Source: Diphasiastrum complanatum
Lineage: Eukaryota; Streptophyta; Lycopodiopsida; Lycopodiales; Lycopodiaceae
Direction: 5' to 3'
Length of the DNA stretch: 64,000 nucleotides
Assembly (NCBI GenBank): GCA_029204225.1
Contig: CM055097.1
Span: 31,137,599-31,201,598, forward strand
Positions within the stretch are counted from its first letter, which is position 1. Each line of letters starts with the position of its first letter. The notes under the pieces are model-generated. The model had not been told where the DNA came from. It saw only the letters and a list, made by a program, of their open reading frames with translations, and did not search any database. Positions 7,401 through 52,047 of this stretch are shown one piece after another. A program made the translations under genes and the position numbers.

Positions 7401-8400
7401 CATTTCAAAACTAACAATGTCCTAGCTTTTATATTGCTGTAACATTTATGATATGCAAAATTCTGACTTCACAATATTCATAATTATATAATGTTTATAA
7501 TTTCAAAATATTTATAAGTTTGCTATTTCATATTAATATGCATTATATTCCTCCAAAATTGTTAGAAGAAAGACACATATTAGTAAAAACTAATCTAGAA
7601 CTTTGTGTACTTAATAAATGGAAGACATTGGCCCAACATGTTTTACTGTACCATCGATAAAAGCCTACAAGGGTAGGAGGTAACAAAAGATAAATAATTT
7701 AAACTGTTTTACCTCAAGTCACTAGGAATTGTCACCTCCTTTAGGCAGAATAGGTGATATGACCAATCATATGAAACATGAATGGAGCATCTAAATTACA
7801 AAAGAAATCCCTAACTACATGTAATAGGATCATTTGATATGATGACCCATATTGAAAGAATAAAAAATCAAAGTGGTTCTATATGCTTAAAAGTTTGATA
7901 TAAAAACCTACAAATGTATCATGTCTCATTCCCAATCCATATTCCAAAAACTTGTTAAATAAACAACCTTCGTTCAATTAACTACATAGTTTTAAATCCC
8001 AAAGTACTGAACAAGTCTCAAATTTTCAACAGATCTTCTCCTTATTTTTTCTGCACTATTGTCTTGTTATTGTTCCTAATTTCTTGAATACTACCACTCA
8101 CCTATCTATATGTACTACAATAACACTTCTCGATCAAGTTCTGACTAAAATGATTATCACCATGTAACATAAACATGGAAAATCACAGGTACCTATGACT
8201 ATAACACAAATTTTTTTTAATCTTTTTGATGGAATCAAATCGAAAATGGAACAGGCTGAAAGTTCTATCAATTACTATGTTTAGTTTTGAACGATGTTTG
8301 CAAATTTCGAAACTGTATAAAAAAATAAAAAAAACATCCCACCTTAAATGAATACCTGAGTTTTGATATATAATAAAACAAATTTTCCTCGCATGTGCAA
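7401..8400. other. AT-rich sequence without recognised gene
   Basis: No motif, repeat or convincing frame. A 78-codon minus-strand frame at 8183-8419 contains a possible splice acceptor (AAACTCAG near 8363), but the peptide is not informative. Confidence 0.4.
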
Positions 8401-8682
8401 TTACATAAACCGCACACAATAATATGTGAACATATAGTGTTCATGTAACCAAAATACTAGTTTAAGACAAAGATCAGCTTTTGGTCTTCCTTGCAATATT
8501 TCCAACAAAACTTTGAATCTATAAGCACAAAAACTTTCTAACATATTAAAATATTGACTACAACAATTTTCTTCAACTAGTTTTCTAAACACAACTTTGA
8601 GCCAACTTATATTTTTTTGTTCAAATTCATAAATAACTATGGTACATAGATCAATAAAGATACATAGCAAAATCAATAACAT
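8401..8682 (-). pseudogene. Unrecognised coding-like fragment
   Basis: A 93-codon minus-strand frame whose middle, FNMLESFCAYRFKVLLEILQ followed by GRPKADLCLKL, has a balanced, protein-like composition in an otherwise low-complexity AT-rich setting. I do not recognise the family. It may be an exon of the decayed gene cluster that follows. Chance cannot be excluded. Confidence 0.25.
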
Positions 8683-8892
8683 AAATAAATAAATACAATA
8701 ATAACATATCTAATTTACAAAAATTTCAGAATCTTGTATTTTTTAACTAGTGTTTTTTGTTCATAATTTTATCTCTTTCTTTTATCAATATTTGTGTTGC
8801 GCCTACTACTAACATGTCTTTTTATCTGCAGATTATGAAATTCTACATAACAATTGCAATCAAATACAAAACTTTTTTTCTAAAACAAAAAC

Positions 8893-9480
8893 ATGACAAC
8901 TCCAACAAACGGTGATATTGTAAAAAATTCTAATATTCATGAACAAAACAGAAATTGGACACCTATAATGACAGTTGCATTAAAAACATTGCTTGAAACT
9001 CATCCTACTTATACTTGAAAACAAATTATGATAGAATTCCATCACATTTTTTGAAACAGAACATACTTCCGCAACTATATTTTATTGTATTAGAATACTT
9101 AAAAAAGAAGCTCGTTATCAACATGGACATGTGATATGACAAACTATATTGAAGAACTTGTTCAACAAGCACCAGCATTATTCAAAAAACATATCATTAA
9201 CAAATTCCAAACAAGATTTCCTATTGCTCTAATGAAAAACGAACGTATTTTATATCGTATACGAAAAGCATTAAATAGCAATAATTACATAAACAGTACA
9301 CGTATCACAAATATAAGCAACTCTTCTCAAAAAGTTAGACTCAACAAACAATATTGGACTCACGATTTAATATTAGTTATTAGACAATTAATTTTACAAT
9401 ACTTGACAAGTCAAGACCAAACCCTTTGAACCCTTCAATTTATAGCATAACATGTAAGAAAAAAGCTGTATAAAGTCTTA
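8893..9480 (+). pseudogene. Decayed gene with three SANT/Myb-like modules
   Basis: SANT/Myb modules are small three-helix DNA- or histone-tail-binding domains. Three in-frame tryptophan codons (8956, 9124, 9355) each open a module of similar layout: W-T-x-x-[ML], a leucine-rich helix of about 15 residues, then a helix like TWKQIMIEF or FKKHIINKF, then an Arg/Ile-rich helix such as ERILYRIRKALN. Module 1 is interrupted by TGA at 9016 exactly where a Trp codon is expected. A one-base shift near 9055 and its compensation before 9124 also break the frame. A 97-codon open piece (9136-9429) covers module 2 and the start of module 3. The candidate start is 8893. A pyrimidine tract with TGCAG at 8829 could be an upstream splice acceptor. 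The closest family is not known to me. Confidence 0.4.
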
Positions 9481-9913
9481 CAATATAGAGTACCATAAAG
9501 CGAAGCAAGTTTTAGGACACTCAGCTATTACCTGCCACCATCCCACAAAACACAACTGCACAAGTTAGTTACGTGAGAAAGATAAGTGTCATAGCTGAGC
9601 ATCATGTGTTATCCATGTCCAAAAAAAGATTAACTACAGGTTGGGAAGCTAAGTCGTGGTTTCCGGCTCCCTTTGGGATGCCTGCGCTACAATATTTGCT
9701 TCTTGTGTGATTGTGAAATTTGATGAAAATCTTTCGACAATACTTATTTGCAGCTTGACAACACTGCTAGGAAAAATAAATACAGAAAAAAAAAAATTCA
9801 AAAAAGTAAAAATAGAAATTTTTAAAAAGCTACATATGTACAAAGATCATATATATAGAGGTGGCTTGAGTTCCTAACTTATTTATCATGTGGATAGAGT
9901 TGTGGCCTTATCA
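9481..9913. other. No recognisable gene
   Basis: This may be interior sequence of the copia remnant whose primer site lies at 9914. The short frames at 9649-9877 on both strands carry no motif. Confidence 0.35.
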
Positions 9914-10300
9914 GCTCTGATACCACCTGATGGAATGGAACGAAAGGATGATTGTAATTAAAAATAATACATCCAATCTTCCCTATCATGCATTTTATAA
10001 TTAGCAATACATTCTGCCCTTTAACAAAACCGTATAAAGACAGATGCCATACTGGTCAGTACAAGAGCAAAAAGAATGTATTAAGTTCACATAAGCTTTC
10101 TACATGTACAAAGCTATCTTTCATTATATAGATAACAAGAGACATGACTTTAGCATTAGTGCTAGGTACTAGGGCAAATCCATGCCATACTAGCCCCAGG
10201 TGCTCCCACGAAAGTCGTAGGGAGTCCAAGCACCTTATGGCTTGGGCAAATCCATGCCGTACAAGCGCGCCAAGGTCAAGCTCTTACAAAATTCACAACT
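9914..10300 (-). mobile_element. Copia-type primer site and LTR remnant
   Basis: GCTCTGATACCA at 9914-9925 is the inverted initiator-Met primer site found in most plant copia elements. Two bases later TGATGGAATGG could be the LTR edge, giving a minus-strand element. Inside, the string GGGCAAATCCATGCC occurs twice (near 10172 and 10245). The right LTR edge and any pol sequence were not found, so the limit at 10300 is approximate. Confidence 0.4.
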
Positions 10301-10509
10301 TACTCAAAAGAAACCACTCTTAAGTCCAATATATCATGTCGTTGTTATAAGTGTTATAACTAACAACTTATCAGTTTAAAAGATGATAAACGCAAGTACT
10401 CTTCGTAACTATTTATAAGAGTAATAATCTAAAGTCTACTGTAAATATCTTGATGTATGCATAAACTGTCACATATTATCGAAAACATCATTCAAATTGG
10501 TGTTACCTC

Positions 10510-10815
10510 ATATGGCTTCATACCTGGATGCGATTTGAAGAGATTTTCAGCGAGCTACACATCTCCAATCACTTTAAGCAAGATCTTCCTGATATACTAG
10601 TAATTACACACCGAGAATAATGAGTTAAAGGTAGCGTGTTATGGTTATAAGAGTATCGTATCGTAAAAAAGATGTTAATCGTCAATAGAACGTCATTCGT
10701 TTTGCAAGCCGGTGTTGGTATCTTAAAAAGCCATAAACACGTCTTTACATTACTTCATATCTTGATTTCCAGCACATTTTGCAAATAGTACAATTGTTTT
10801 GGTATCATTATTTTC
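10510..10815 (-). pseudogene. Unrecognised decayed exon
   Basis: One minus-strand reading frame from about 10815 to a GT splice donor near 10506 reads as protein if several TAG, TAA and TGA codons are ignored. Clear stretches are LFAKCAGNQDMK at the start and YIRKILLKVIGDV followed by LAENLFKSHPGMKPYE at the end. The stops are of the kind made by C-to-T or G-to-A change. I do not recognise the family. It lies in the cluster of intron-containing relic genes and has the same decay pattern. Confidence 0.35.
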
Positions 10816-11053
10816 AAGGTTGATACTACTAATATTGCTTAATAGAACCTGTCAATATGATAACCAGAGACACTACATTATATTACAATTCTTATGAACA
10901 ACCATGTATTTCATTCTCTATCAATGTTAGTATGTGCAATTGAGATAATATAGAAGTACGTTGGGCAGCCAACTGTGAGTAGTATTGAGCCAAAACAGTG
11001 TTATGCATTGCATGTATACTCATATAATATTGCTTTTGATACAAAATAGCAGG

Positions 11054-11173
11054 TAGAGCGATGGTGCACTGATCCGCTGTCACCATGCATTCTGAAAAGT
11101 GAGAATATGCACAAAGAGCGATGGTGTATTGACTCGCTGTCAGCATGCATTCTTAAAAAGCGGAAATCCGCAC
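11054..11173. repeat. 60-bp tandem duplication (two copies)
   Basis: Copies start at 11054 and 11114, both with AGAGCGATGGTG and GCATGCATTCT at the same offsets. They are about 80 percent identical by eye. Confidence 0.8.
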
Positions 11174-11625
11174 ATAAGGCAAGCATCAACTTATACAATC
11201 ATGTAAGAATCTGAAGCATTTCAGGAAGCACGTAGAAGTGCGATCTACCACTCCATAGTAAAATGCTGGCCAACAGCCCATTACTTTACCAAAGTAACCT
11301 CAAAGCTATACATTCATCAACGATTTTCCTATCAAGTGTGCCATCACTGTTCAGAAGCAACATTTTCAAATCGATATTAAGTATCATACCTCAGTAATTG
11401 TGGAGGTGTGAGGCTGAGGCAGCGCTCAATTGCAGTAGGAATTCAAGTATCCCACCAAAAAAAAATGGTTTTTTGAAAAAAAAAAGAAATTCTTGGGGGG
11501 TCATCCAACTTAGCATAACAATTTGAGACAATTTAATGGCATTGTTTTTGAAGAGACAACATAAGAAACCTTTCCAACAAAAACTCATGGAGCATTTATA
11601 ATAAAATTTGTATAAAATAGAGTCC

Positions 11626-11628
<3 letters not shown>
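11174..11628. other. No recognisable gene
   Basis: Anonymous sequence. A 78-codon minus-strand frame (11391-11627) is driven by A/T runs and has no motif. Confidence 0.4.

Positions 11629-11678
<50 letters not shown>
11629..11678. repeat. (GA)n microsatellite
   Basis: About 25 uninterrupted GA repeats. Confidence 0.95.
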
Positions 11679-11681
<3 letters not shown>

Positions 11682-12069
11682 TTGCTCCTAAAAGTAGAAT
11701 TTTCATAAAGCATTGGGATGTTGCAGGCTTTGCAAGAGAATGAATGTATTTTTCTTTAGGCTTTCAAGTCAGATAAATGCTTGTGTCTTTTTGCAGTCAA
11801 TCTCTAGTAGATGCATGGTTTCAGTCTGAAGATCTTCGTTGAAGGTAAGAAATTGGGAATGTATACATAGAAATTTAAAGACTTCATTAGGGGATATTAG
11901 AACTCAAAATGGGCCTTTGTCAAGATGTTGTTTTTGACTTGGCATGCTTTCAACGCTTATGTGTCCCAATGAATTTTGTCCATCTGTGACGAACTGTAAT
12001 GGTGGTTGACGGACGAAAATTGTATTTAACTTTCCCGACAAAATTTTCGTGATTTTCAAATATCTTCCA

Positions 12070-12811
12070 GATTTTTCGAGTGAGGAATGGATTTCTCTTG
12101 ATGCAGCAATTTCAAAAAGTTTTTGATCTAGGCTATATATTGATATTCAGAGTATATTAAAATGTAGCACTAGATCAAAGAATAATAGATTAAGTTGGTA
12201 TCTACCTTTTACTATTTTTGTTGATTTTTTTTTTCCAAATGCAATGTTCGGAAAACGAAAACAATGTTTATTTGTAAGGACTTGAGTGCTGATATAATCG
12301 CCGAGTTGTTGGATGATGGTTGGGATACAAAACAAAATCAGCAAGTTGAGTGCAGAGTATGTTACTCATCCATGACATTTAGATATCACATCGAAAAATA
12401 AATGCTCACTATGCTGCTGTATTATAGAAGATGGATTAAATGCAAAAATGTTTGGAAGCCACTTGATCAAGATTTTGGTATAAATCCTCAAGAGCAACTT
12501 CAAATAACAGTGAAAAGAAATGACAACATTCTTGCAATGGTTGAGATCGAGGAAGATTGGTGTCTCAATCACATTCAATCAGAACTAGACATGTTGCAAT
12601 TAGATCTACCTCAATACTATCAATTTTGATTGAATGGTGTAAAGGTACGTCATGCCATATAAAAATATTCTTTTTTTTTCTATTTCTAAGTGAATCAATT
12701 TCATAAAATATATTAACTAAAACAATTTCTCTTGTGCAGTTAAGAGTAAGACATGAAGAGCATATAAAATGCAAAGACATTGGAACATCCATCGAAATTG
12801 AAGATCCATAG
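12070..12811 (+). pseudogene. Unrecognised two-exon gene, decayed
   Basis: A plus-strand frame runs from about 12250 through a TAA at 12399, the 75-codon piece 12402-12629 and a TGA, then to a donor AAAG/GTACGT at 12645. After a 95-bp intron ending CTTGTGCAG (12739) it continues in phase to a TAG stop at 12809-12811. Readable blocks are ADIIAELLDDGWDTKQ, a CRVC pair, a DW-x-L-x-x-I-x-x-EL block, and the terminal exon RVRHEEHIKCKDIGTSIEIE. A frame one base off (12070-12260, starting DFSSEEWISLDAAISKS) may be an upstream exon or a frameshifted part. A possible short first exon starts at ATG 11811 and ends at a GTAAGA donor (11845). The gene converges on the minus-strand H3-protease gene. I cannot assign a function. 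Confidence 0.4.
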
Positions 12812-12995
12812 ATTATGAACTATGGAATTTTGTATTATGTAATACAATTTTTTGTATACATCATTTTTGAAAATATATGAACCCACTTTTTCTATGAGGC
12901 TCTTTCATTTCTATGATCTCCATTTCCATGGTGCAAAACACAATGTAATTGCAACTGGATAATATGTTTTTGATAACAAGATTCATTGTCTCTTG

Positions 12996-13785
12996 CAGGA
13001 AATGCACTATCTCCATTGGGAAGATTTTCAGTCACTTGAACTCCAGTGATCAGTACAATCGACGCTTGCCCTTGTTGATGTCTCATATATATCGGTTGTA
13101 TTTTTGGTCTTCATTGCCTTGGTCTATATTGTCCTTGTCTTGGCATATTTGGATATGTTTAGAAGATGAACTAATTAAAGCTTTGCTGCAACAAATCTAA
13201 GTTTGTTGCATGTTTGGATTGGTTGTGGCAAAGGTTCCATTAGATCATCTTTTTGAACTTATCTAAAAAAAAAAAACATGATAAAGGCAAGACAGACCAA
13301 GGCTATGAAAAACAAACTTGTCGAGAAATCGTAGAAATTGAGATGAATGAATCATAACCTAAATTAATAACAGAAAAATAAACAGGAAATGCATTATCTT
13401 TATTGGGGAGATCTTCAGTCACTTGAATACCAGTGACTACTACAATCAGATATCGAATCAACGCTTGCCCTTGTTGAAGTCTCGTATATATCGGTTGTAT
13501 TTTTGGTCTTCATTGCCTTGGTTTGTATTGTCCTTGTCTTGGCATATTTGTATATGTTCAGTTGATGATTTGATCAAAGCTTTGATGCAACAAATCTAAG
13601 TGAACTAATGTCGCATGTTTGGATTGGTTGTGGCAAAGGTTCGATCAGATCATCATTCTGAACTTATCCAAAAAAAACCATGGTAAAGGCAAGGCAAACC
13701 AAGGCTATGAAAAACAAACATGTCGGAAAACCGTAGAAATTGAAGATGAATGAATCATAACCTGAATTGATAAGAGAAAAAAAAA
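12996..13785. repeat. 387-bp tandem duplication
   Basis: Unit 1 starts at 12996 and unit 2 at 13383, each beginning CAGGAAATGCA and ending in an A-rich tract. Both carry the phrase TCGGTTGTATTTTTGGTCTT. Each unit contains, on the minus strand, a diverged copy of the last exon of the H3-protease gene (the true copy is 14044-13886). The duplication therefore probably arose from that exon and its 3' flank. Confidence 0.75.
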
Positions 13786-14347
13786 CAAGTAAGAACAACC
13801 ATAGAAAAACTATAAATATATTTCTATTAAAAATTTTTGTACATGTGTCTCATCCACATCAAGTGAGGCAAATATTTAATCAGTATCAACTATCTATGAT
13901 CTCTAAATCCATTTCTTCAGTTGGAAGTAGCTTGGGTGGAGAACATTCGGCCACTGCAACTGGATATGAATTTTTGATCACCAACTTTATGGTCTTCTTT
14001 CTGAAGTGCATTATCTCCATTCGGGAGACTTTCAGACATTTAAACTGAAAAAAAAAAACACAAACACAGTTAAATGTAATTAATCAAAGATCAGTTAATA
14101 TTAATTTGAATTAGGAAAAAACAAAAACACAATTAAAAGTTATTATTCGAAGATTACCTTTTCTAGATTTGGAAGTCCCATCTTGTAGTGCAAGCCAATC
14201 AAAAAAGTATTTGGCATTGCATATGGTATACCAACCACAGCTGACAGAATCAACCTGTTGGGAGGACTGCAAAATCCAAATTTTAACATTATGAGATATC
14301 AGATCAACTACCAAGATGTTATAACTAAATCTACAACGGAAACAAGG

Positions 14348-14451
14348 GCGCGTCGAACCGATATCAAAAAAATATTTTTTGAATATTGGATCAGCGCGCA
14401 CGTTATGAAAAGAAATCAAACAATAACTACAAGGGCGCGTCGAACCGATAT
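14348..14451. repeat. Palindromic GC-rich box module inside protease-gene intron
   Basis: 14348-14399 is a 52-bp near-palindrome whose arms end GCGCG...CGCGC around an A/T centre. A further copy of GCGCGTCGAACCGATAT lies at 14435-14451. On the minus strand the boxes read ATATCGGTTCGACGCGC (box A) and GCGCGCTGATCCAATAT (box B). The module is wholly within the 14267-14465 intron. Confidence 0.8.
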
Positions 14452-14553
14452 TGATAAATTTTTACCTCTGCATCAACAATTTTTAGCTTCGTATATGCTT
14501 TTGCATTTGGTACTGGAAAGAGTTCCAGTATTTTCTGTATATGGCTCCTGGCA

Positions 14554-14555
<2 letters not shown>

Positions 14556-14598
<43 letters not shown>
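14556..14598. repeat. (GT)n microsatellite inside protease exon
   Basis: About 21 GT repeats (CA on the gene strand). They lie between the codons of the catalytic His segment and the following exon end, so they interrupt the C48 domain. Confidence 0.95.
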
Positions 14599-14601
<3 letters not shown>

Positions 14602-16000
14602 AGAGTTCATCTTTAAACAAACTGGATTACACACACCCTCATCATTGACGTATAAGGACAACACATATAAGTTCCAATGATCACTGCAATCATAAAACAA
14701 TAAGTTAATGAGAATCAATGTGAAATCAAAATTCATATGAAAAATTTAACAAAATAAAATCTGAAAAAAAGACACTTTGTTATGTATGGCAACACGAGAA
14801 TTGGAGTCCCCAGTCTGACGTATTGGAGCATATCATCGTGCAGACTTTTGAAATCAGAAAAATCAAACGCAGTCATGAATTGAAGGGAAAACAATGCTAC
14901 ATTCATAAACAATGGGGTCTGGAAAAATCCCATCCAATACTGAATGGCCTCACCTCCTACATTGTCACCTAGCATTTTATCTCTATTTTCTAATTCACTT
15001 GTATCTAAACTAGAAAGGGGGAGACCAACATTGGTCTTCAGCATCCTAAAACTGTATTGAGGACCTAAACCTTTAAGATATGTGTTTAATAATTGGTCAT
15101 ACTGTACATATTGAGGACTATTTACAAAGGCAAGTGCAGGGGGTGACAGAAGTATTACAGATAAACCAGAAAAAGAATTGTCTTTCAAAATTGATTCTAC
15201 CTTTACATTAACAAAATCATCTAAATCATTTCCTAGAACAGGTGGAGAGGAACTAATATTTTTGAGGATAGGAGGAGGAGTTTAGGAGGAGGAGATTTAT
15301 TAGGAGAGGAAGATTTAGGAGGAGAAGTTAAAGTTGGAGTTATCGGATGAGAAGAAAGATACTTAGGAGGAGAATTGGGAGGAGAATGCCTAGAAGAAAG
15401 AAACTCATCCAAAGGGGATGGCTTGGAAAAATCTCTCGCTTTATTTGGAGGGTCAAGAGACCTCCTCTTCTTTGAGACACTCCCGTTCTATAGACGAATA
15501 ACAAGCCGAGATGGTTGAGATTGTTTTCGTTTTGACCTCCCTGAATCTTGTTTTGGAGGAGAGGAGGGAGTAGGTCTAAAGTATTCTGCAAATTTGTCAT
15601 ATGTGTCTTGAAGCCTGAACACAATGTTGAAATCCTTGGGCATGATGGTCACCCTCTTGACATGGACAGCTGCAACAATAGTATCAGAAAAAAATTTCAC
15701 CTAGAAATCCTCATATGCTGTGTGCAGCGTCTCAATTGCTGTTACCGTCCATCTCACATTTGCAGATAGACTTCTTGTCACCTGCCTGATGGATCTCTGT
15801 ATGTGAGCTTTTGGAATCAGAAGATTATTTGTCTTCTGTAGCTTTCGAATATCCTTGAGCCAGGGTGGGTCTCTTCTTCTGCCCCTTGGCCTAGGAGGAG
15901 GTGGTGGTAGACGAGGTGGTGGTTGTAAACTTTCCTGTCCTGCTCCTGAGATTGGTATTCCACCAGGGTGGCCTCCTGCAGTTTGCTTGGTCCGTGCCAT

Positions 16001-16333
16001 TACTGACCAATATCGGATCAACACGCGAAGAAGGTAAACCCAGGATGAGAAGTAGGGTAGAGCACGTCGAACCGATACCTGAGCTCTACAATATTGATAA
16101 CTGATAGCGGATGGGCACGCGAGAGTATTGAGTTTGCCTCGAATGCGCTGTATCATTTTCGCATGGATGTAGAGAACTGTAATAACTTTAAGCAAAAAAA
16201 TTTCAATGTCGTCTATCAGTATATACAGAAAAATTTTGAAATGATTGAAAACGTCGTGGGTTGGATGTCCGAGGTTTGAATTATGATGATGATTTCTCTG
16301 AGACTTGTCAATCAAATCAAAGTGAATATCCAT
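16001..16333 (-). other. Open frame continuing upstream of the H3-like start
   Basis: The reading frame stays open for 111 codons upstream of MARTKQTA, to an ATG at 16333. The part nearest H3 overlaps the box modules and is probably regulatory. The distal part contains IEIFLLKVITVLYIHAKMIQ, which faintly recalls the FLENVIRDAV...HAKRKTV region of H4 but is four residues shorter. An H4-H3 doublet is possible but unproven. It could equally be 5' UTR. Confidence 0.25.
16007..16079 (-). promoter_or_regulatory. Box A-box B module directly upstream of the H3-like ATG
   Basis: On the minus strand box A (GTATCGGTTCGACGTGC) is followed after about 35 bp by box B (CGCGTGTTGATCCGATATTGG, given in two parts: CGCGTGTTGATCC and GATATTGG). 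Box B ends 6 bp before the ATG at 16000. Box B contains a CCAAT/ATTGG core, a common element of histone promoters. A partial further copy lies at 16105-16122. Confidence 0.5.
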
Positions 16334-16528
16334 CTATAATAAAAATAATTAGTCGATATCGAATAAAACAAAATTAATTTCGTCTAAAGTATGGTCACAT
16401 CTACATTTAAAGCTACAAAAGTATGGTCACATCTAAAATTTAATGTTGAAATTGACAATGTTAAGCTATAAGTATCTGACATTTTTTATATCCAATCATT
16501 ATAATTTCGTAATATTCTAGCCGCCATT

Positions 16529-16840
16529 ATTTCACCCAATAGCAAATCGACGCGCATATACTGCATGTGAAAACTAGAAATTCTATTCCTGCGCGCTGAT
16601 CTGATATTGGAAAATAATATGAATGATCAAAGCTTGATTCGATATATGCTCCTTAGCTTTGGACTCCAATAATTTCAAAAATTGTCAAAAAATTTTGTTT
16701 CCTACCCTAGCAATTTGACGCGAGCAATCCAAGTGAAAAATCACTGTCATCGTTAAAAGCGCACTGATCCAATATCCAGTATTTCACCCGATAGCTAATC
16801 GATGCGCTTATACAACATTTGAAAACTAGAGGTGCTTTTC
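16529..16840 (+). promoter_or_regulatory. Repeated box A-box B modules upstream of the H2B-like gene
   Basis: Three plus-strand units can be aligned. Unit 1 (16529-16611) runs AATCGACGCGC ... GTGAAAACTAG ... GCGCGCTGATC. Unit 2 (16700-16778) runs AATTTGACGCGAG ... GTGAAAA ... GCGCACTGATCCAATATC. Unit 3 (16779-16840) runs TATTTCACCCGATAGC, TAATCGATGCGC, TGAAAACTAGA and stops at the candidate ATG 16832. The orientation relative to the gene is the same as at the H3-like gene. Confidence 0.5.
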
Positions 16841-18561
16841 TCAATTGTTCCATTGATTGAAGCATTTGCAACTGTTGCAGTTGATGTAGATGATGTAGAT
16901 ACTGATATATGGGTTGAAGCTGAAACATCTATGGCTTCAGATTATCAAAAAACTCTCCCTCGTTTTATAATTCTCTCTGATTCTCTTCCATCTGCAACTC
17001 ATGTTAATCAATTAACTCTACTTGATGTTCCCTTATATTTTATAAATAATGAAAGTTATATTTCATTTAATGACATAGAAGATGTTTTGAATTTGAGAGA
17101 GGATGAAATCCTTTCAATTTTTGCTCAAAATTTATATGAATTTTCTGACATTGTTGATTACTCATATGATGACCTTGAAAGTGAGATAGACTATGATAAA
17201 GATGGCAATTGGAAATCTGGAAATGAGGCCTTGGAGGCCATGATTGAAAAACCTAAAGCCTATGAAAAAAATTTGTCTATAGAGATCCAAAAAAAAATCC
17301 CCCAAGGCCTAGATATATCCCCTCTGGAAATGTAGAGGCAATTGGAGGACATGACATTGGCAGAGCAAACGTCGTTGATTACGATGATTATGATCTGGTA
17401 CATAGATGTTATATTGTTATTGATATTGTTCAGTTTTCTTATTGAGTTTGCAGTGTTATGTATAATTCTAAATTTATTTTCTTTTCTCGTTTACGGAATG
17501 TATTTGAAATAGATGCTTTTGGTATGAGACATGGAGGCGTCCGTGGTGTATCAGCCAGGAGAAAAGATGTGTCTCTATCTCATTATTTGAAACACTTTCA
17601 AAATAATGAGTGTTGATTTCACACGTGTGGAGTGTCCACAACATGTATTTGTGATCTCCTAAGGTGTGTAGATGCACCAAGATCAAGACTAGATTGAGAT
17701 TCAAGATCTATCTTTGATTCTATGGCAAAAATACACTACTACATGCATTCAATCACTTCCAACTCTTACTCACACATGTGGGAAGTGTTCCAAAATTAAT
17801 CTAAGTAAAAACAAGCTGCTCTCCTCGGGTAGAGAGAGAAAATCATCAATAGCTCTCGGGTAGAGAGAGAAAGCTAGAAAATCACTTACACTCAAAATCC
17901 ACTCGATCTCAAAATCAATTAGATCCAAATGAGGAGTACAATGATACTAGTAGATCCATGAGCTTCCACTATGCTTAACTATGATTGGACCACACTTTGC
18001 CACCTCTTAATCCTATTGGACCATTGATCCATGCACCTCTAAATTCTATTGGACCATTTTCAAGCAAACCTCAAATTCTATTGGACCACTCATGGTTCCA
18101 CCTCTAAATCCTATTGGACCTCTTAAACTTCATCAAACAAAAGCATTACACTTGTCTAAACTCTAATTGGCACAGGTTTGGCCTCCTACTCTATTTTGGC
18201 TCAATAGTGACATTACAAGTGGAAATGGATAATTTGTCATCTATGCCAAATTTGACCCTATCAACATCCTACACCTAAATGCTTGACTATGAGATTCTAT
18301 GAGACCCCTATATCAAACATTTTTATTTACTTTACAATTCTCCACACGTGGGAACATACTCCACACATGTGAGATTCACTTACTAACTTCTATCATAAAA
18401 AAAATACCAAGCTAGATTTTTGCCAATTTTTCACACTCCTCCTCAAAAAATAGCTTGGAAAGGTACTAGATCACTTGAGAAGTTTGTGAATCTTTCTGAG
18501 TGGATCCTTCGGTATGCATAAGAAGTAAAGATCAACCAAGGGATCCATCATAGCAGCACCC

Positions 18562-19926
18562 TCACCATATCCATGATAAGATCTCTTTGGTAGAGGTCTC
18601 TTGCCAATGCCTTTGAAGAGTGCTCCACCAATATGCCACTATTATCATGGGCTTCCTCCATGCTTGATGATGATTTTTGCTATGAAAGTTCCACTTGCAT
18701 GATGGATGCACCATAAATAGATAAATCTGAGGCTTCCAAGCCTCATAAGGATCATGGAGATCAAGATCATAAGATGTGAAACAATGATGATTATCAAGAT
18801 TATGCTTTCTAGCTTGACTAGTCCACATACAATGAACTATATCCATGATGGATCTAATCTTGATATCAAAGACTATCTTGATCTTTTTTAGGCTAGTTAC
18901 TCTCTCAAGGATGTAAGTGTCCACTTTGGATGCTTCACTTAATCTCAAGAGGAGTTTACAATTTGCCTCAAAACATGTGAAAACATGATTTTCAAAAAAG
19001 TGAGTACCAAGCTCAATCTTGTTCTTACTAGAACCAAGAGCATACTTTTGACAATACAATATCTTGCTTTCAAAAAGTATTGGAAACACATCTAAGTCAA
19101 TAATGACAAGAAACATGTGCATACCATAAGCATCATACAAAACTAGTATAGCTTTTCTTGAACTTTGAGATCCAAAAAATTCAATGAAGCAAGATAGCAT
19201 TTCAAGCAAAGGAAGAGAAGCATATATGAATGTGTTGTAGTAGATACAACATGAAAGATGCCCCTCTTTGCCATGTAAGGTGAGCCATAAAGACTCGGCC
19301 ATGTATCTTGAAGATCTTCTTGAAATCATATGAAGAAGAAACTCCTCCTCCCACATTGGTCCCATCATAACTTGAATACCTTCAAAAAAGATAACTTGTG
19401 ATGCTTCTTGAGAAGCCTTGATCTCGGCCACTTCCAAGATTGAATCTTTATGCAATGTGACATCTCTACTCACAATCACTTTTAAAATAGAGAGTGTAAA
19501 GACACTAAAGGCCTCCTTGATGGATGAGTATCCAATCATGATCCATGACCTTGGATCATCCTTCCTTCTTGTTTCCAAGGGAATATGTGCAAAGCAAGCA
19601 CTACCAAGTTCACTAAGGTGATCAACCTTAGGCTTCATCTTAAATAAAACGTCATATGGTGCTATTCCTTCAAGAGTTCCAATACTCCTCAAAGCTTTGA
19701 TCTTCAATGAGAATTTCTTCTCAACATATGCTTTGAATAATAAGGAATAATTATACACCATAATACTTGAAGAGAGAAGATATGTGCATCTTGTGTGATC
19801 ATCCTCCTTTGAAATATTGGACATATAAGAAACATCAAGAGAGTTTGCACTCTCACTTGGATCCAATTTGTAGATGCCTTCAGATCTTGATCCATATGCA
19901 AGGATCTCACCATCCTTCTTGATCAC
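18562..19926 (-). CDS. Rearranged copia polyprotein of element C, no reverse transcriptase
   Basis: A single 454-codon open frame made of shortened pol blocks. It has a protease/pre-integrase piece (GSRSEGIYKLDPSESANS), a fragment of integrase (YLLSSSIMVYNY, FKAYVEKKFSLKIKALRS) without its catalytic core, and the post-integrase linker (HIPLETRRKDDPRSWIMIGY). The remaining ~220 residues lack the RT and RNase H motifs. They include LLLRLSEASKVDTYI, which recurs in element K. It is unlikely to have enzyme activity. The unbroken frame after so many deletions is odd. Confidence 0.55.
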   Translation of the reverse strand: MIKKDGEILAYGSRSEGIYKLDPSESANSLDVSYMSNISKEDDHTRCTYLLSSSIMVYNYSLLFKAYVEKKFSLKIKALRSIGTLEGIAPYDVLFKMKPKVDHLSELGSACFAHIPLETRRKDDPRSWIMIGYSSIKEAFSVFTLSILKVIVSRDVTLHKDSILEVAEIKASQEASQVIFFEGIQVMMGPMWEEEFLLHMISRRSSRYMAESLWLTLHGKEGHLSCCIYYNTFIYASLPLLEMLSCFIEFFGSQSSRKAILVLYDAYGMHMFLVIIDLDVFPILFESKILYCQKYALGSSKNKIELGTHFFENHVFTCFEANCKLLLRLSEASKVDTYILERVTSLKKIKIVFDIKIRSIMDIVHCMWTSQARKHNLDNHHCFTSYDLDLHDPYEAWKPQIYLFMVHPSCKWNFHSKNHHQAWRKPMIIVAYWWSTLQRHWQETSTKEILSWIW

Positions 19927-19982
19927 ACAATTGTCAATATTGAAATTGACATCAAAACCACTATCAAGAAGTTGGCCAACAC

Positions 19983-20494
19983 TTAAGATGTTCTTTGTAA
20001 GCTTTGGGACAAAAGAACATTGTTGAGAAAGAGATCTTTGGAAGATGCAAGCTTCAAGGGAATAATCCCTACTCCTTCAATATTGCACTCATGCTTACTT
20101 GCAATGTATATGGTCTTCTTGACTCCATCATAAGGCATAATAGATGAAAAAGAGTGCTTGGAGCCACACATATGTGAGGATGCTCCACTATCAATATACC
20201 ATGAGTCATCCTTGTTGAAGGTGGAAGAGGAGAAGCTTGATGCCATAAGAGAGCCTTCTCCATCACTTGCAATATAGTCTTCTTTCTCATTGGTGATGTT
20301 GGCTTGATTGAGTTGATTCTTCTTCTTGAAGCAATTGGTGGCATAATGGCCTTTCTTGCCACAATAAAAGCAGTTGATCTTCTTCTTCTTGAGATTTGAA
20401 TTAGAAGCATGAGAGGTATCCTCCTCCTCTCCATCTTGGTCTTTAGCTTTGTCATTAGAGAAGTGATGATGTTGCTTTTTACTCCTCGGCACAA
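19983..20494 (-). pseudogene. Gag zinc knuckle and protease fragment of element C
   Basis: Contains the zinc knuckle CFYCGKKGHYATNC and the aspartic protease active site WYIDSGASSHM, in the usual copia order. It is cut at its N-terminal side by the deletion into the LTR at about 20488. It has the same family signatures as element G (59137-60434). Confidence 0.8.
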
Positions 20495-21099
20495 GTTTGG
20501 CCTCCTACTCTATTTTGGCTCAATAGTGGCATTACAAGTGAAAATGGATAATTTGCCATCTATGCCAAATTTGACCCTATCAACATCCTACACCTAAATG
20601 CTTGACTATGAAATTCTATGAGACCCCTATATCAAACATTTTTATTTACTTTACAATTCTCCACACGTGGGAACATCCTCCACACATGTGAGATTCACTT
20701 ACAAACTTCTATCATAAAAAAATATCAAGCTAGATTTTTGCCAATTTCTCACAATGAGATTTGTATATATCATTCATCTTTTAATCCATATGTAACCACT
20801 GTCATTATGGCCATCAAATCATTATCAGTTTGTTTGGGAGGCCATAAGTACGCAAGAGGAACATATAACATAAATTTTGTGAAAAGAGATTTGGCTATTA
20901 AGATATTGGGTTATACTCCCAATGAGACTATGAAAAGATCATCTGCAATGGCCTTTTATTCGGGTTACATTGATATGAGCAAGAGAAAAAATTTAGAATT
21001 TTTGGATCCATATGAAAGGAGTTCTTCATGACAATACCATCCATCTGAAGCTTGAAGAGGATGATGATGATAAATAAATTTTCTGTAATAGATTTTTGA

Positions 21100-22440
21100 T
21101 ATATTACAAGGATTTCTCTTTTGTAATGAATTTGAATGCTTTAATACTTGGCACGTTTTTAGCTTGATATCTAAATTGTGCTCTTCTATAAAACCACTGA
21201 AAAAGTTGAAATAAATATTTATTTCTTGAATTGTGTCCTCCATGGTTTGTTGCTCTATAAAATGCTCCCCTTGCTTGCCAATGAGATTTTCTCATGCCTT
21301 GTGATGACCAGATACTTAAGCTCCCATATTCCTTTGCAAAATAAGTTGCACGATGAAGAAGGATGTGCTGCAAACAATAGTTTTGATTAGTTACATCAGT
21401 AGAAAAAAATATAAGCCCGAATGAGAAAAATATTAGATAATAATATAGATTAGCACCATGTAATGAGTAACATTGTCTTTTCCCCAACAATCATATGCAG
21501 ATTTTACAAATGTGGTGCAATGATTTTACAAAGTCCTCATATCTTCTGATGATAGGTTTTCTTTCCTGATAACACCTATGAGTTTGTCTAAGTTGGTCCA
21601 CGTTTGTTCCTTTTCCACTCGATTACTTCCTTCCAGTGTTCATGTGGCTTGAACAATTTCTCTCCAAATTTTGTATCTGACACTTGATTCTTTGCATGTG
21701 TGATTGGATAAGAATCTTCTTGCTTTAGCACCTCCAATTGATAAATTATTAGGAACGTTTCCTTTTTTCCCGAAGAGTCTGTCACTTTTTTCAATCGTGA
21801 CATTTTCTTTATGTAGTCCTGCATTTGACAGAACTATTTCCAACCTCCTAATTGTTGCTTAAGCCACAAACTCCGGTTTAGGATTCCATGCTAGTAGAAT
21901 ATGCAGGTAAATAAGTTTTTCAATAATACGAACCTCAACATGCAATGTGCATATGTGAACATATTTTAATGGAATTGGCATAACACTTTTCATATTTGGA
22001 TCTTCAGCTTCTCGGGCTGGGCCAGTGTTTGTTAATTGTCCCAAATTCATATTGTAGCAATCCTTCATGCAATAAAGACATGGATGCTTTGATGTTGCCC
22101 ATGAGAGACATTATACATACATTTTAATGTTTTCAAATCCCCTACAAGGTGCCATTGAATTTGAAAACTTCCATGGTTTTCGACTGTAAATTTATCACCC
22201 TCTAAATGTCTCCTTGTAATCTCGCCATAATTTGTTTTTGAAAATATCCATGAAAGTATTTTATGGTCCTCTTTCAAGACCTGTAGAGAAACAAGTAATG
22301 CATGACATGTCAATAAAAGTTGGCAAGATATGAATTGTTAATAAAGATATTCTAAATGAAAATAGAAATCTATACCTGGAATGCCGCCAACCACCATATG
22401 TGATTTTTCGATTGAGCATTAAACGTTTGATCATTTGTAT
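21100..22440 (-). pseudogene. Transposase-like gene, decayed, multi-exon
   Basis: Exon 22440-22376 (ending WWLAAFQ) is followed by a 95-bp GT-AG intron. The next exon, from 22280, carries VLKEDHKILSWIF and then GDLKTLKCMYNVSHGQ. Further on are LHVEVRIIEKLIYLH, a region with WREIVQA and NHCTTFVKSAYDCWGKDNVTHYM, and, after another likely intron, YGSLSIWSSQGMRKSHWQAR, NHGG and LFQWFYRRAQFRYQ. The order of a G-D-L-K motif, an L-H...EKL helix and a GMxKSH motif recalls unnamed transposase-like proteins of eukaryotic DNA transposons, and could supply D, D and E residues. I cannot assign a superfamily. Stops and frameshifts break it, and its 5' part is lost at the junction with gypsy element D. Confidence 0.4.
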
Positions 22441-22498
22441 CTGAAATTTTGTTCATCAAAGTGACACTCACTCGTTCCAACCTTGATGACAGCGGTAT

Positions 22499-45746: not shown

Positions 45747-46608
45747 TGTTGAAAATTGTCACTTCTCACTTGACATTGGTTCATGTAAATATTGATCAAA
45801 CATTAGAATATGTTGATGATATGATTTCACACGTGTGGAGCATGTTCCCATGTGTGAAAGGATGTACTTTTCATGTTTGTATATATCCAAATTGATTTTG
45901 TATCATTCTAGTTAGTGTGAACATGAAATGACTAGTTTTTAGTCAAGTTGACTAGTCACCTACAAATTAGCTTTTCCTTGCATGTGCATGAGTAAATGCT
46001 CCCACATGGCAAGTGGATGTTCACATGTGTGTATAGAGTACTAGAAGATAAGAGTTGACCATTTTCCTTAGATCCTATTTTGTAGGGAATATTCCTATAT
46101 TCTAGGAGACTAGCTTTTTGGATTTTAGTCATATTCTAGAAGGTCAACTATTGGATAAGGATCAAGGATGGATCAAATGGATAGATATGAGTGATGTGGC
46201 ACTCTTCACACGTGTGAAGGCCTGCTGGACTGTACCAGACTCATGGATGTACTTGATCCATAAAAGGATCATCATTTTGCTAAGAAAATTGATGAGACTT
46301 TTGCACTCTACACTTTTGTGAGATTTCTAGTCATTTGTCTTGTGATTTTTATGCATGATTGCTATCTAGTATCATTGTACTTGTTGTTTCAGGTGCAGGC
46401 CGTACAGTGGACAGTACTCCACACGTGTGAAGCCGCTCTCACTAAAAAATGATGTGTTGATCCATTGCTCTTGCTTAAATCCAAGTGTAGTGAATCTAGA
46501 TCAAGATCTAATGTGTAGAACTTGATAGATTCATTGATTAAGCAACCAATAACTCTCTATGATTGTAAAGTACAATCATTATTGTCCTAAAAACTGTAAA
46601 ATTTATCA
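45747..46608 (+). repeat. 5' LTR of element I
   Basis: TGTTGAAAATTGTC...AATTTATCA. It carries three copies of the palindromic core CACACGTGTG, near 45828, 46206 and 46421. Confidence 0.95.
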
Positions 46609-51185: not shown

Positions 51186-52047
51186 TGTTGAAAATTGTCA
51201 CTTCTCACTTGACATTGGTTCATGTAAATATTGATCAAACATTAGAATATGTTGATGATATGATTTCACACGTGTGGAGCATGTTCCCATGTGTGAAAGG
51301 ATGTACTTTTCATGTTTGTATATATCCAAATTGATTTTGTATCATTCTAGTTAGTGTGAACATGAAATGACTAGTTTTTAGTCAAGTTGACTAGTCACCT
51401 ACAAATTAGCTTTTCCTTGCATGTGCATGAGTAAATGCTCCCACATGGCAAGTGGATGTTCACATGTGTGTATAGAGTACTAGAAGATAAGAGTTGACCA
51501 TTTTCCTTAGATCCTATTTTGTAGGGAATATTCCTATATTCTAGGAGACTAGCTTTTTGGATTTTAGTCATATTCTAGAAGGTCAACTATTGGATAAGGA
51601 TCAAGGATGGATCAAATGGATAGATATGAGTGATGTGGCACTCTTCACACGTGTGAAGGCCTGCTGGACTGTACCAGACTCATGGATGTACTTGATCCAT
51701 AAAAGGATCATCATTTTGCTAAGAAAATTGATGAGACTTTTGCACTCTACACTTTTGTGAGATTTCTAGTCATTTGTCTTGTGATTTTTATGCATGATTG
51801 CTATCTAGTATCATTGTACTTGTTGTTTCAGGTGCAGGCCGTACAGTGGACAGTACTCCACACGTGTGAAGCCGCTCTCACTAAAAAATGATGTGTTGAT
51901 CCATTGCTCTTGCTTAAATCCAAGTGTAGTGAATCTAGATCAAGATCTAATGTGTAGAACTTGATAGATTCATTGATTAAGCAACCAATAACTCTCTATG
52001 ATTGTAAAGTACAATCATTATTGTCCTAAAAACTGTAAAATTTATCA
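51186..52047 (+). repeat. 3' LTR of element I
   Basis: Offset by exactly 5439 bp from the 5' LTR at every landmark checked, including the identical 67-codon frames inside each LTR. Confidence 0.95.

Follow-up and report, generated by a model that had tools for sequence, protein, structure and literature searches.

An H3-like histone domain joined to an Ulp1-like protease domain in a likely DNA-transposon family of Diphasiastrum complanatum

A stretch of 64,000 nucleotides from the lycophyte Diphasiastrum complanatum (hereafter the window, to which all positions refer) carries on its minus strand, at 13886..16000, a broken gene in which a histone H3-like part is followed by an Ulp1-like protease part. 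This raises the question of whether such a join is a host protein, an accident of decay, or the product of some other genetic entity. The coding parts lie at 16000-14776, 14683-14466, 14266-14158, and 14044-13886, the ATG of the MARTKQTA start being at 16000 and one frame break occurring near 15280 in the first part. Of the introns (14775-14684, 14465-14267, and 14157-14045), the last two had been named in the initial annotation and fit, with splice sites mostly kept in 14 other copies of the gene; the first is additional, and its removal yields TNDHWNLYV. The one spliced gene encodes, in this order, an H3-like domain, a linker, and a protease-like domain in which His, Gln, and Cys signatures occur. 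Stops in frame numbered 2 over 240 codons and 0 over 167 codons, as compared to means of 12.1 and 10.5, respectively, in shuffled controls. Rfam and tRNA searches gave no match.

The H3-like domain (15608..16000, minus strand; residues 1-131) consists of MARTKQTA, a replaced Pro/Arg-rich tail, and a histone fold with an intact KRVTIMPKD. It matched H3 in the PDB from the first methionine over residues 1-131 (E = 6.3e-18), and the Pfam family Histone (PF00125) over the fold (E = 2.9e-20; 73.2 bits against a cut-off of 26.4). The likeness to histone H3 thus covers the start of the tail, the full fold, and loop L2 (KRVTIMPKD), with identities to plant H3 of 8/8 in MARTKQTA and 6/6 in loop L2; the differences are the low identity of residues 8-38 (4/31) and of the fold (34/88), together with a linker about 110 residues long, followed by the protease-like domain. 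The earlier claims of identity to H3 through K4 and of an H3-like middle with KRVTIMPKD, the latter with a profile check proposed for it, were therefore both borne out. K4 is kept, but the rest of the modifiable K4/K9/K27/K36 tail is replaced; tail positions one to seven and the loop that faces DNA are retained, and the K9-K36 part has given way to the Pro/Arg-rich stretch. In a structure model of the H3 exon helices were predicted at 46-56, 64-81, 86-106 with 108-113, and 121-141, and only the helix places were used because the mean pLDDT was 54. Foldseek with this model (pLDDT 54) gave nucleosome chains as its top four hits (E = 0.012-0.09), none reaching E ≤ 0.001.

The Ulp1/clan CE-like domain occupies 13886..15000 (minus strand; upstream limit approximate) and was recognized from motifs, PDB ranks, and conservation, with NDHW at the 14776/14683 junction and QQVDSVSCGW at 14260-14231. 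When the protease core was searched against the 177,635 sequences of the PDB, SENP8, RickCE, and again SENP8 took ranks 1-3 of 5 (E = 0.25-0.27); these alignments cover the Gln-Cys signature, and that with RickCE covers the His too. With a longer protease query the same three clan CE chains took ranks 3-5 of 5, below an unrelated nuclease. The reversed sequence retrieved one unrelated chain and one shuffle retrieved three STAT3 sequences, with zero clan CE chains in either case; all of these scores, for the protease part and for its controls, are worse than any usual threshold. The domain therefore resembles SENP8/DEN1 and RickCE in the Gln-Cys signature (both), the His (RickCE), and their order, and differs from them in its sub-threshold E-values and in the acid position. 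Asp is the usual residue at that position; here it is Asn, before a microsatellite, in 14/15 rows of the gene alignment described below. The same rows showed Cys in 15/15, the first Gln in 15/15, and His in 14/15.

Pfam, including PF02902, gave no match to the spliced protease part at E-values up to 10, and a search of the genome with PF02902 found at least three places (L001-L003; 150 of 520 candidates scored), all of them outside the H3-protease family. Among 2,776 candidate proteins (limited to about 306-975 aa, as in the whole-protein search) none matched the protease part at E ≤ 0.1. Kinship to the host SENP8-like protein L001 was considered and rejected, the alignment being at chance level. 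The protease part is a conserved domain, and its motifs, the order of its PDB hits, and its conservation from copy to copy suggest that it probably has a clan CE protease fold. The initial annotation had gone further and called it a C48 protease; the His and Gln/Cys signatures on which this was based hold, whereas the formal assignment is withheld because of the missing profile match, the PF02902 places elsewhere, and the Asn for Asp.

The window copy is damaged by stops and frame shifts, and more heavily than the "only TAG codons and one shift" first reported, since the (AC)n microsatellite at about 14600-14556 adds a further frame shift and 4 bases have been lost at the first donor site. The microsatellite is in phase as (Thr-His)n in 5/15 gene rows, with a later stop in 2 of those 5. 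This damage would suit a host gene pseudogenised in the window, or an H3 pseudogene joined by chance to other DNA. In a neutral-decay simulation of 2,000 runs the stop count was compatible with decay (P = 0.235) and the 8/8 match in MARTKQTA excluded it (P = 0.0005). The copies found elsewhere refute this explanation, leaving it virtually no probability: the H3-plus-linker exon recurs across the genome, the protease exons follow it, and copies share the same end with unrelated flanks.

The genome searched comprised 1,744,706,496 bases (1.74 Gb) in 5,176 contigs. The H3-plus-linker exon was present in at least 150 places, the window and one identical contig included (150 of 7,882 candidates scored, 150/150 matching), at 73-100% identity, mostly over about residues 1-240 with the linker included, and spread over 23 large contigs as well as numerous small ones. 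Some copies have an H3 exon without any stop. Copy numbers given here are lower bounds, because 150 of 7,882 candidates were scored for this exon and 40 of 2,536 for the terminus (see below). The protease exons and introns were seen directly behind the H3 exon in 14 further copies, which cover the gene completely or almost completely. In these 14, intron 1 showed GT donors in 13/14 (GTAAGT in 10/14) and AG acceptors in 12/14, intron 2 GT in 9/14 and AG in 14/14, and intron 3 GT in 12/14 and AG in 12/13.

For the analysis of constraint, the window locus (L004) and its identical counterpart (L005) were dropped before the 29-row and 15-row counts. The 15-row gene alignment leaves out 14 of the 28 other loci (L006-L009, L013-L015, L017, L019, L021, L023, L025-L027), in which the match was broken or ended prematurely, L013 being omitted as a near copy of L012; among the kept rows, L010, L012, L016, and L029 end before the end of the last exon, and rows are partly dependent because L010 and L016 are near-identical. 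Over 29 rows, pairwise dN/dS came to 0.42 in the H3 fold (codon bootstrap 0.28-0.56), 0.34 in the 9-codon tail, and 0.60 across codons 10-44. The 15-row values were 0.43 (H3 exon), 0.55 (the entire second stretch, linker included), and 0.30 (protease codons; codon bootstrap 0.22-0.42). The pairs are non-independent, and the values probably understate constraint because averaging lumps descent under constraint together with the neutral decay that followed it. This indicated that the H3-protease fusion has been kept under purifying selection in many copies, and the earlier claim that both parts belong to one minus-strand gene is upheld. Met1, Thr3, and Lys4 were each found in 29/29 rows; Arg2 was kept in 15/29, the others having mostly Gln and Trp, and Arg8 in 18/29, with 7 stops. 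Since the changes at Arg2 and Arg8 are those expected from methylated-CG decay, they suggest that copies of the family were once silenced.

These values also bear on the possibility that a host H3 and a piece of a host protease were captured as a passenger useless to the element. Gene capture is common in plant transposons, according to the accessible part of a review of the KIU genes (PMC13317346), and the higher dN/dS of 0.60 in the linker would agree with it. Nevertheless we regard a passenger as very unlikely, given the low dN/dS of fold and protease codons, the retention of catalytic residues, Lys4, and three introns, the number of places, and a fold that is only 34/88 identical to plant H3 and yet in frame.

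On the downstream side, homology stops at the same base in 4 of 10 stretches (window included), with unrelated DNA beyond; in the window this exact end is the terminal inverted repeat A, CATTAGGGGATATTAGAACTCAAAATGG, at 11885..11912 (plus strand), and copy C7 shares this end save for 2 changes. A genome search with 11500-12500 (40 of 2,536 candidates scored) gave 27 terminal pieces, 21 of them starting at window positions 11881-11888 and 6 further in, plus one short match that is likely due to chance. The opposite end was seen in 2 of 9 upstream stretches (C21 and C5b), starting CATTAGGGGAAATATGGGCTCAAAATGG in the opposite direction. The two ends, seen in different copies, share an imperfect inverted repeat beginning CATTAGGGG, with 23/28 bases alike. 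From the opposite end to the ATG there are 5,273 bases in C21, and from the ATG to the window-type end 4,555 in C12a, so that the element is about 9.8 kb long, a length pieced together from two copies each of which may hold insertions or losses. In the window the element continues on the divergent-gene side over 21032..22481, homology with other copies stopping at 22481, and no second terminus was found there.

As no examined copy had both ends, a target-site duplication is unreadable; copy C7, tried for this purpose, has the near end and an inverted piece of the far end, with nothing readable. As a separate observation, the terminal 640 bases are inverted near another part of the element at G000:C7:33924000-33927500 (L061), possibly a rearranged or composite copy. 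Six-frame Pfam searches of 8000-17604 returned only Histone over the cut-off, with no transposase recognized, and no Mutator transposase or VANC domain was found there or in the scanned pieces of other copies. Common ends, unrelated flanks, and inverted terminal repeats are the structural marks of a TIR DNA transposon, and on structure the family is likely to be one; we are highly confident that a mobile-element-type family encodes the fusion, and the family presumably moves or moved. Since the family that holds the gene is dispersed and its fixed ends form terminal inverted repeats, the fusion is most likely a transposon's protein, and the initial proposal of a new kind of host chromatin protein is not sustained.

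A viral or virus-like origin of the element was weighed at this point. Some virions are matured by clan CE proteases, and H3 occurs in some large DNA viruses. The accessible part of one source (PMC9145170) describes single H3s of viruses, with altered tails. Against this, the gene has spliceosomal introns and the terminal inverted repeats of the element are short, the six frames of 8000-17604 (part of the element) yielded neither a capsid nor a polymerase family, and no relative was found in viral contigs, in scans that reach close relatives only; an endogenous virus thus has very little probability. No relatives were found in prokaryote contigs either.

The element holds further genes. A divergent gene (MASDYQ...) begins about 930 bases from the ATG of the H3 gene; its first part lies at 16931..17610 and its last part at 20759..21031 (both plus strand), the latter with a homologous reading frame in C21. 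Between them, at 17611..20753 (minus strand), sits a Ty1/copia-type insertion flanked by ATGAG duplications, and in the empty site 17610 and 20759 are in frame. Not all copies retain the neighboring genes: DNA homology to the divergent one was detected in C21, C5a, C5b, and partly C17, and C3, C4, C12a, and C12b gave no match to its last part. The window has lost the part upstream of MASDYQ, where C21 has more coding sequence. The sole relative of this gene in the protein collection was P0026 (81% identity over 54% of the query). In addition, copy C3 contains, about 6.5 kb downstream of the start of its H3 gene, a 31.6% identical relative of 95 aa (L034:2-529, minus strand), which points to a wider family of the divergent gene. 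Of a convergent third gene only pieces remain, at 12264..12629 (plus strand); it ends at 12629, and relative to C12a the window is without a stretch further upstream. Pfam gave no family over the cut-off in the scanned pieces of the divergent and convergent genes.

Some other features of the window were recorded. Behind the stop of the H3 gene, at 12996-13787, a stretch of about 400 bases occurs twice in tandem (84% alike), each copy holding a piece similar to exon 4 (in one, 62% over 65 bases), with an inverted stretch at 13499-13721 within this region. Outside the element end at 11885 there is an interrupted reading frame, WTPIMTVALKTLLETHPTYT..., at 8895-9428 (plus strand), with no Pfam family over the cut-off and a weak PHROG match to a transcriptional regulator (E = 0.039). 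Copia- and gypsy-like elements were read by eye in the window, and those of copia type are nested within 17611-64000, where several copies are closely related, which suggests recent activity; of these, 45747-46608 and 51186-52047 are identical over 862 bases.

The non-coding DNA of the element contains a repeated motif, ATATYGGWTCRRCGCGC. With ≤3 mismatches allowed, 10 occurrences were counted where 0.30 would be expected; they all lie within 13450-16775, and none falls in a predicted coding exon, though 52% of that interval is coding. Five arm pairs in the window have identical geometry (17-35-17), other spacings never recurring. These are 69-bp inverted-repeat units, two in intron 2 (14296..14364 and 14383..14451), one at 16010..16078, 9 nt before the ATG, and two between the divergent genes (16539..16607 and 16707..16775, the latter with one arm degenerate). 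The spacers are mostly dissimilar (8-13 of 35 alike, one pair 19/35). Two units in the intron-2 region and the unit 9 nt before the ATG were present in 5/5 copies examined. Across five copies the arms were 52 bases apart in 28 of 42 pairs and 51 or 53 in 4, the remaining 10 pairs joining neighboring units. The idea that the short inverted pairs are a scattered MITE was rejected in view of the fixed spacing, the mostly dissimilar spacers, and their confinement to the element within the window. Fifty-two bases make five DNA turns, a spacing compatible with a pair of contacts on the same side of the helix.

In the main rival reading, the fusion is movement machinery, the H3-like part binding or bending the 69-bp units and the ends, and the protease-like part processing or assembling the complex. 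The pairing of arms at a fixed 52-bp spacing in five copies, the constant unit next to the ATG, and the full conservation of loop L2, a DNA-contact part of H3, argue for it, whereas the units found are internal, away from both termini, and no recombinase family appeared in the regions scanned; histone folds, moreover, bind DNA with little sequence preference. On balance a movement role seems unlikely.

The reading that we favor overall, with somewhat better than even confidence, is a likely DNA-transposon family whose H3-protease protein would probably act on the chromatin of the element as an anti-silencer, the anti-silencing role taken on its own being a tentative proposal. Transposons are silenced through histone marks. 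In the favored reading, pairing of the H3 fold with host H4, and recognition of the retained A-R-T-K-Q-T tail by proteins that read or write H3K4 marks, could bring the protein into or beside nucleosomes. Once there, the protease could strip SUMO, or a modifier related to it, from proteins that act in silencing, and the element would supply its own landing sites in the form of the 69-bp units. A more specific version, in which an H3K4-tailed, nucleosome-building variant with a deSUMOylating protease would be loaded on the 69-bp sites and strip silencing marks from the very nucleosomes covering the element, making the family a transposon superfamily with a histone of its own, is improbable. A length of 69 bp is close to that wrapped by an H3-H4 tetramer.

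The nearest known counterpart to this anti-silencing reading is found in the VANDAL elements, non-TIR Mutator-like transposons of Arabidopsis and other plants. According to the accessible parts of two sources (PMC13317346, PMC5735166), some of these carry VANC genes with an Ulp1 part (KIU), and VANC proteins remove methylation after binding short motifs that lie in introns and between genes of the elements encoding them. Both systems are thus multi-gene plant transposons with an Ulp1-type accessory protein and, as far as those texts describe, repeated motifs in the element's own non-coding DNA. The VANC motifs are there described as same-direction, whereas the 69-bp units are inverted pairs at fixed spacing. 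The present element further differs in having terminal inverted repeats, 23 of 28 terminal bases pairing in this way, in showing no Mutator-type family in the regions scanned, and in its H3-like domain; the KIU review (PMC13317346) mentions no histone domain for KIU, and the word histone is absent from it. By this comparison, the ensemble is similar and the H3 part is the new feature. Grapevine CACTA elements with ULP regions, Cactavine-2 among them, are likewise plant DNA transposons with an Ulp1-like part in the accessible part of their description (PMC2528002); the present element has ends in CATTAGGGG instead of CACTA, no Tnp2 family in the regions scanned, and the H3 fusion.

With the spliced protein as query, 24 matches were obtained among 7,984 candidates scored, all with PF00125 and over 15-33% of the query. 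P0006 (653 aa) also has both PF02902 and PF00125, in the opposite order, with a near-canonical H3 fold at the C-terminus; its Cys-like motif precedes its HW motif, and it is possibly an independent second H3-protease join. Five other proteins (P0019-P0022 and P0025; 424-433 aa) have a canonical H3 start and fold with a long inserted middle between them and, from their sequences, would form an H3 family with a giant tail. In the open-access literature we found no description of a fusion between H3 and an Ulp1-type protease, whether in a transposon or in another protein.

Selection has preserved, in a family with at least 150 matched places in this genome, a pairing of H3 and protease that we did not meet in the open-access literature. 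If the proposed role is true, a transposon-encoded protein that carries the H3K4 epitope together with a SUMO-type protease would counter silencing directly at the nucleosome, and escape from chromatin silencing would be testable with one protein.
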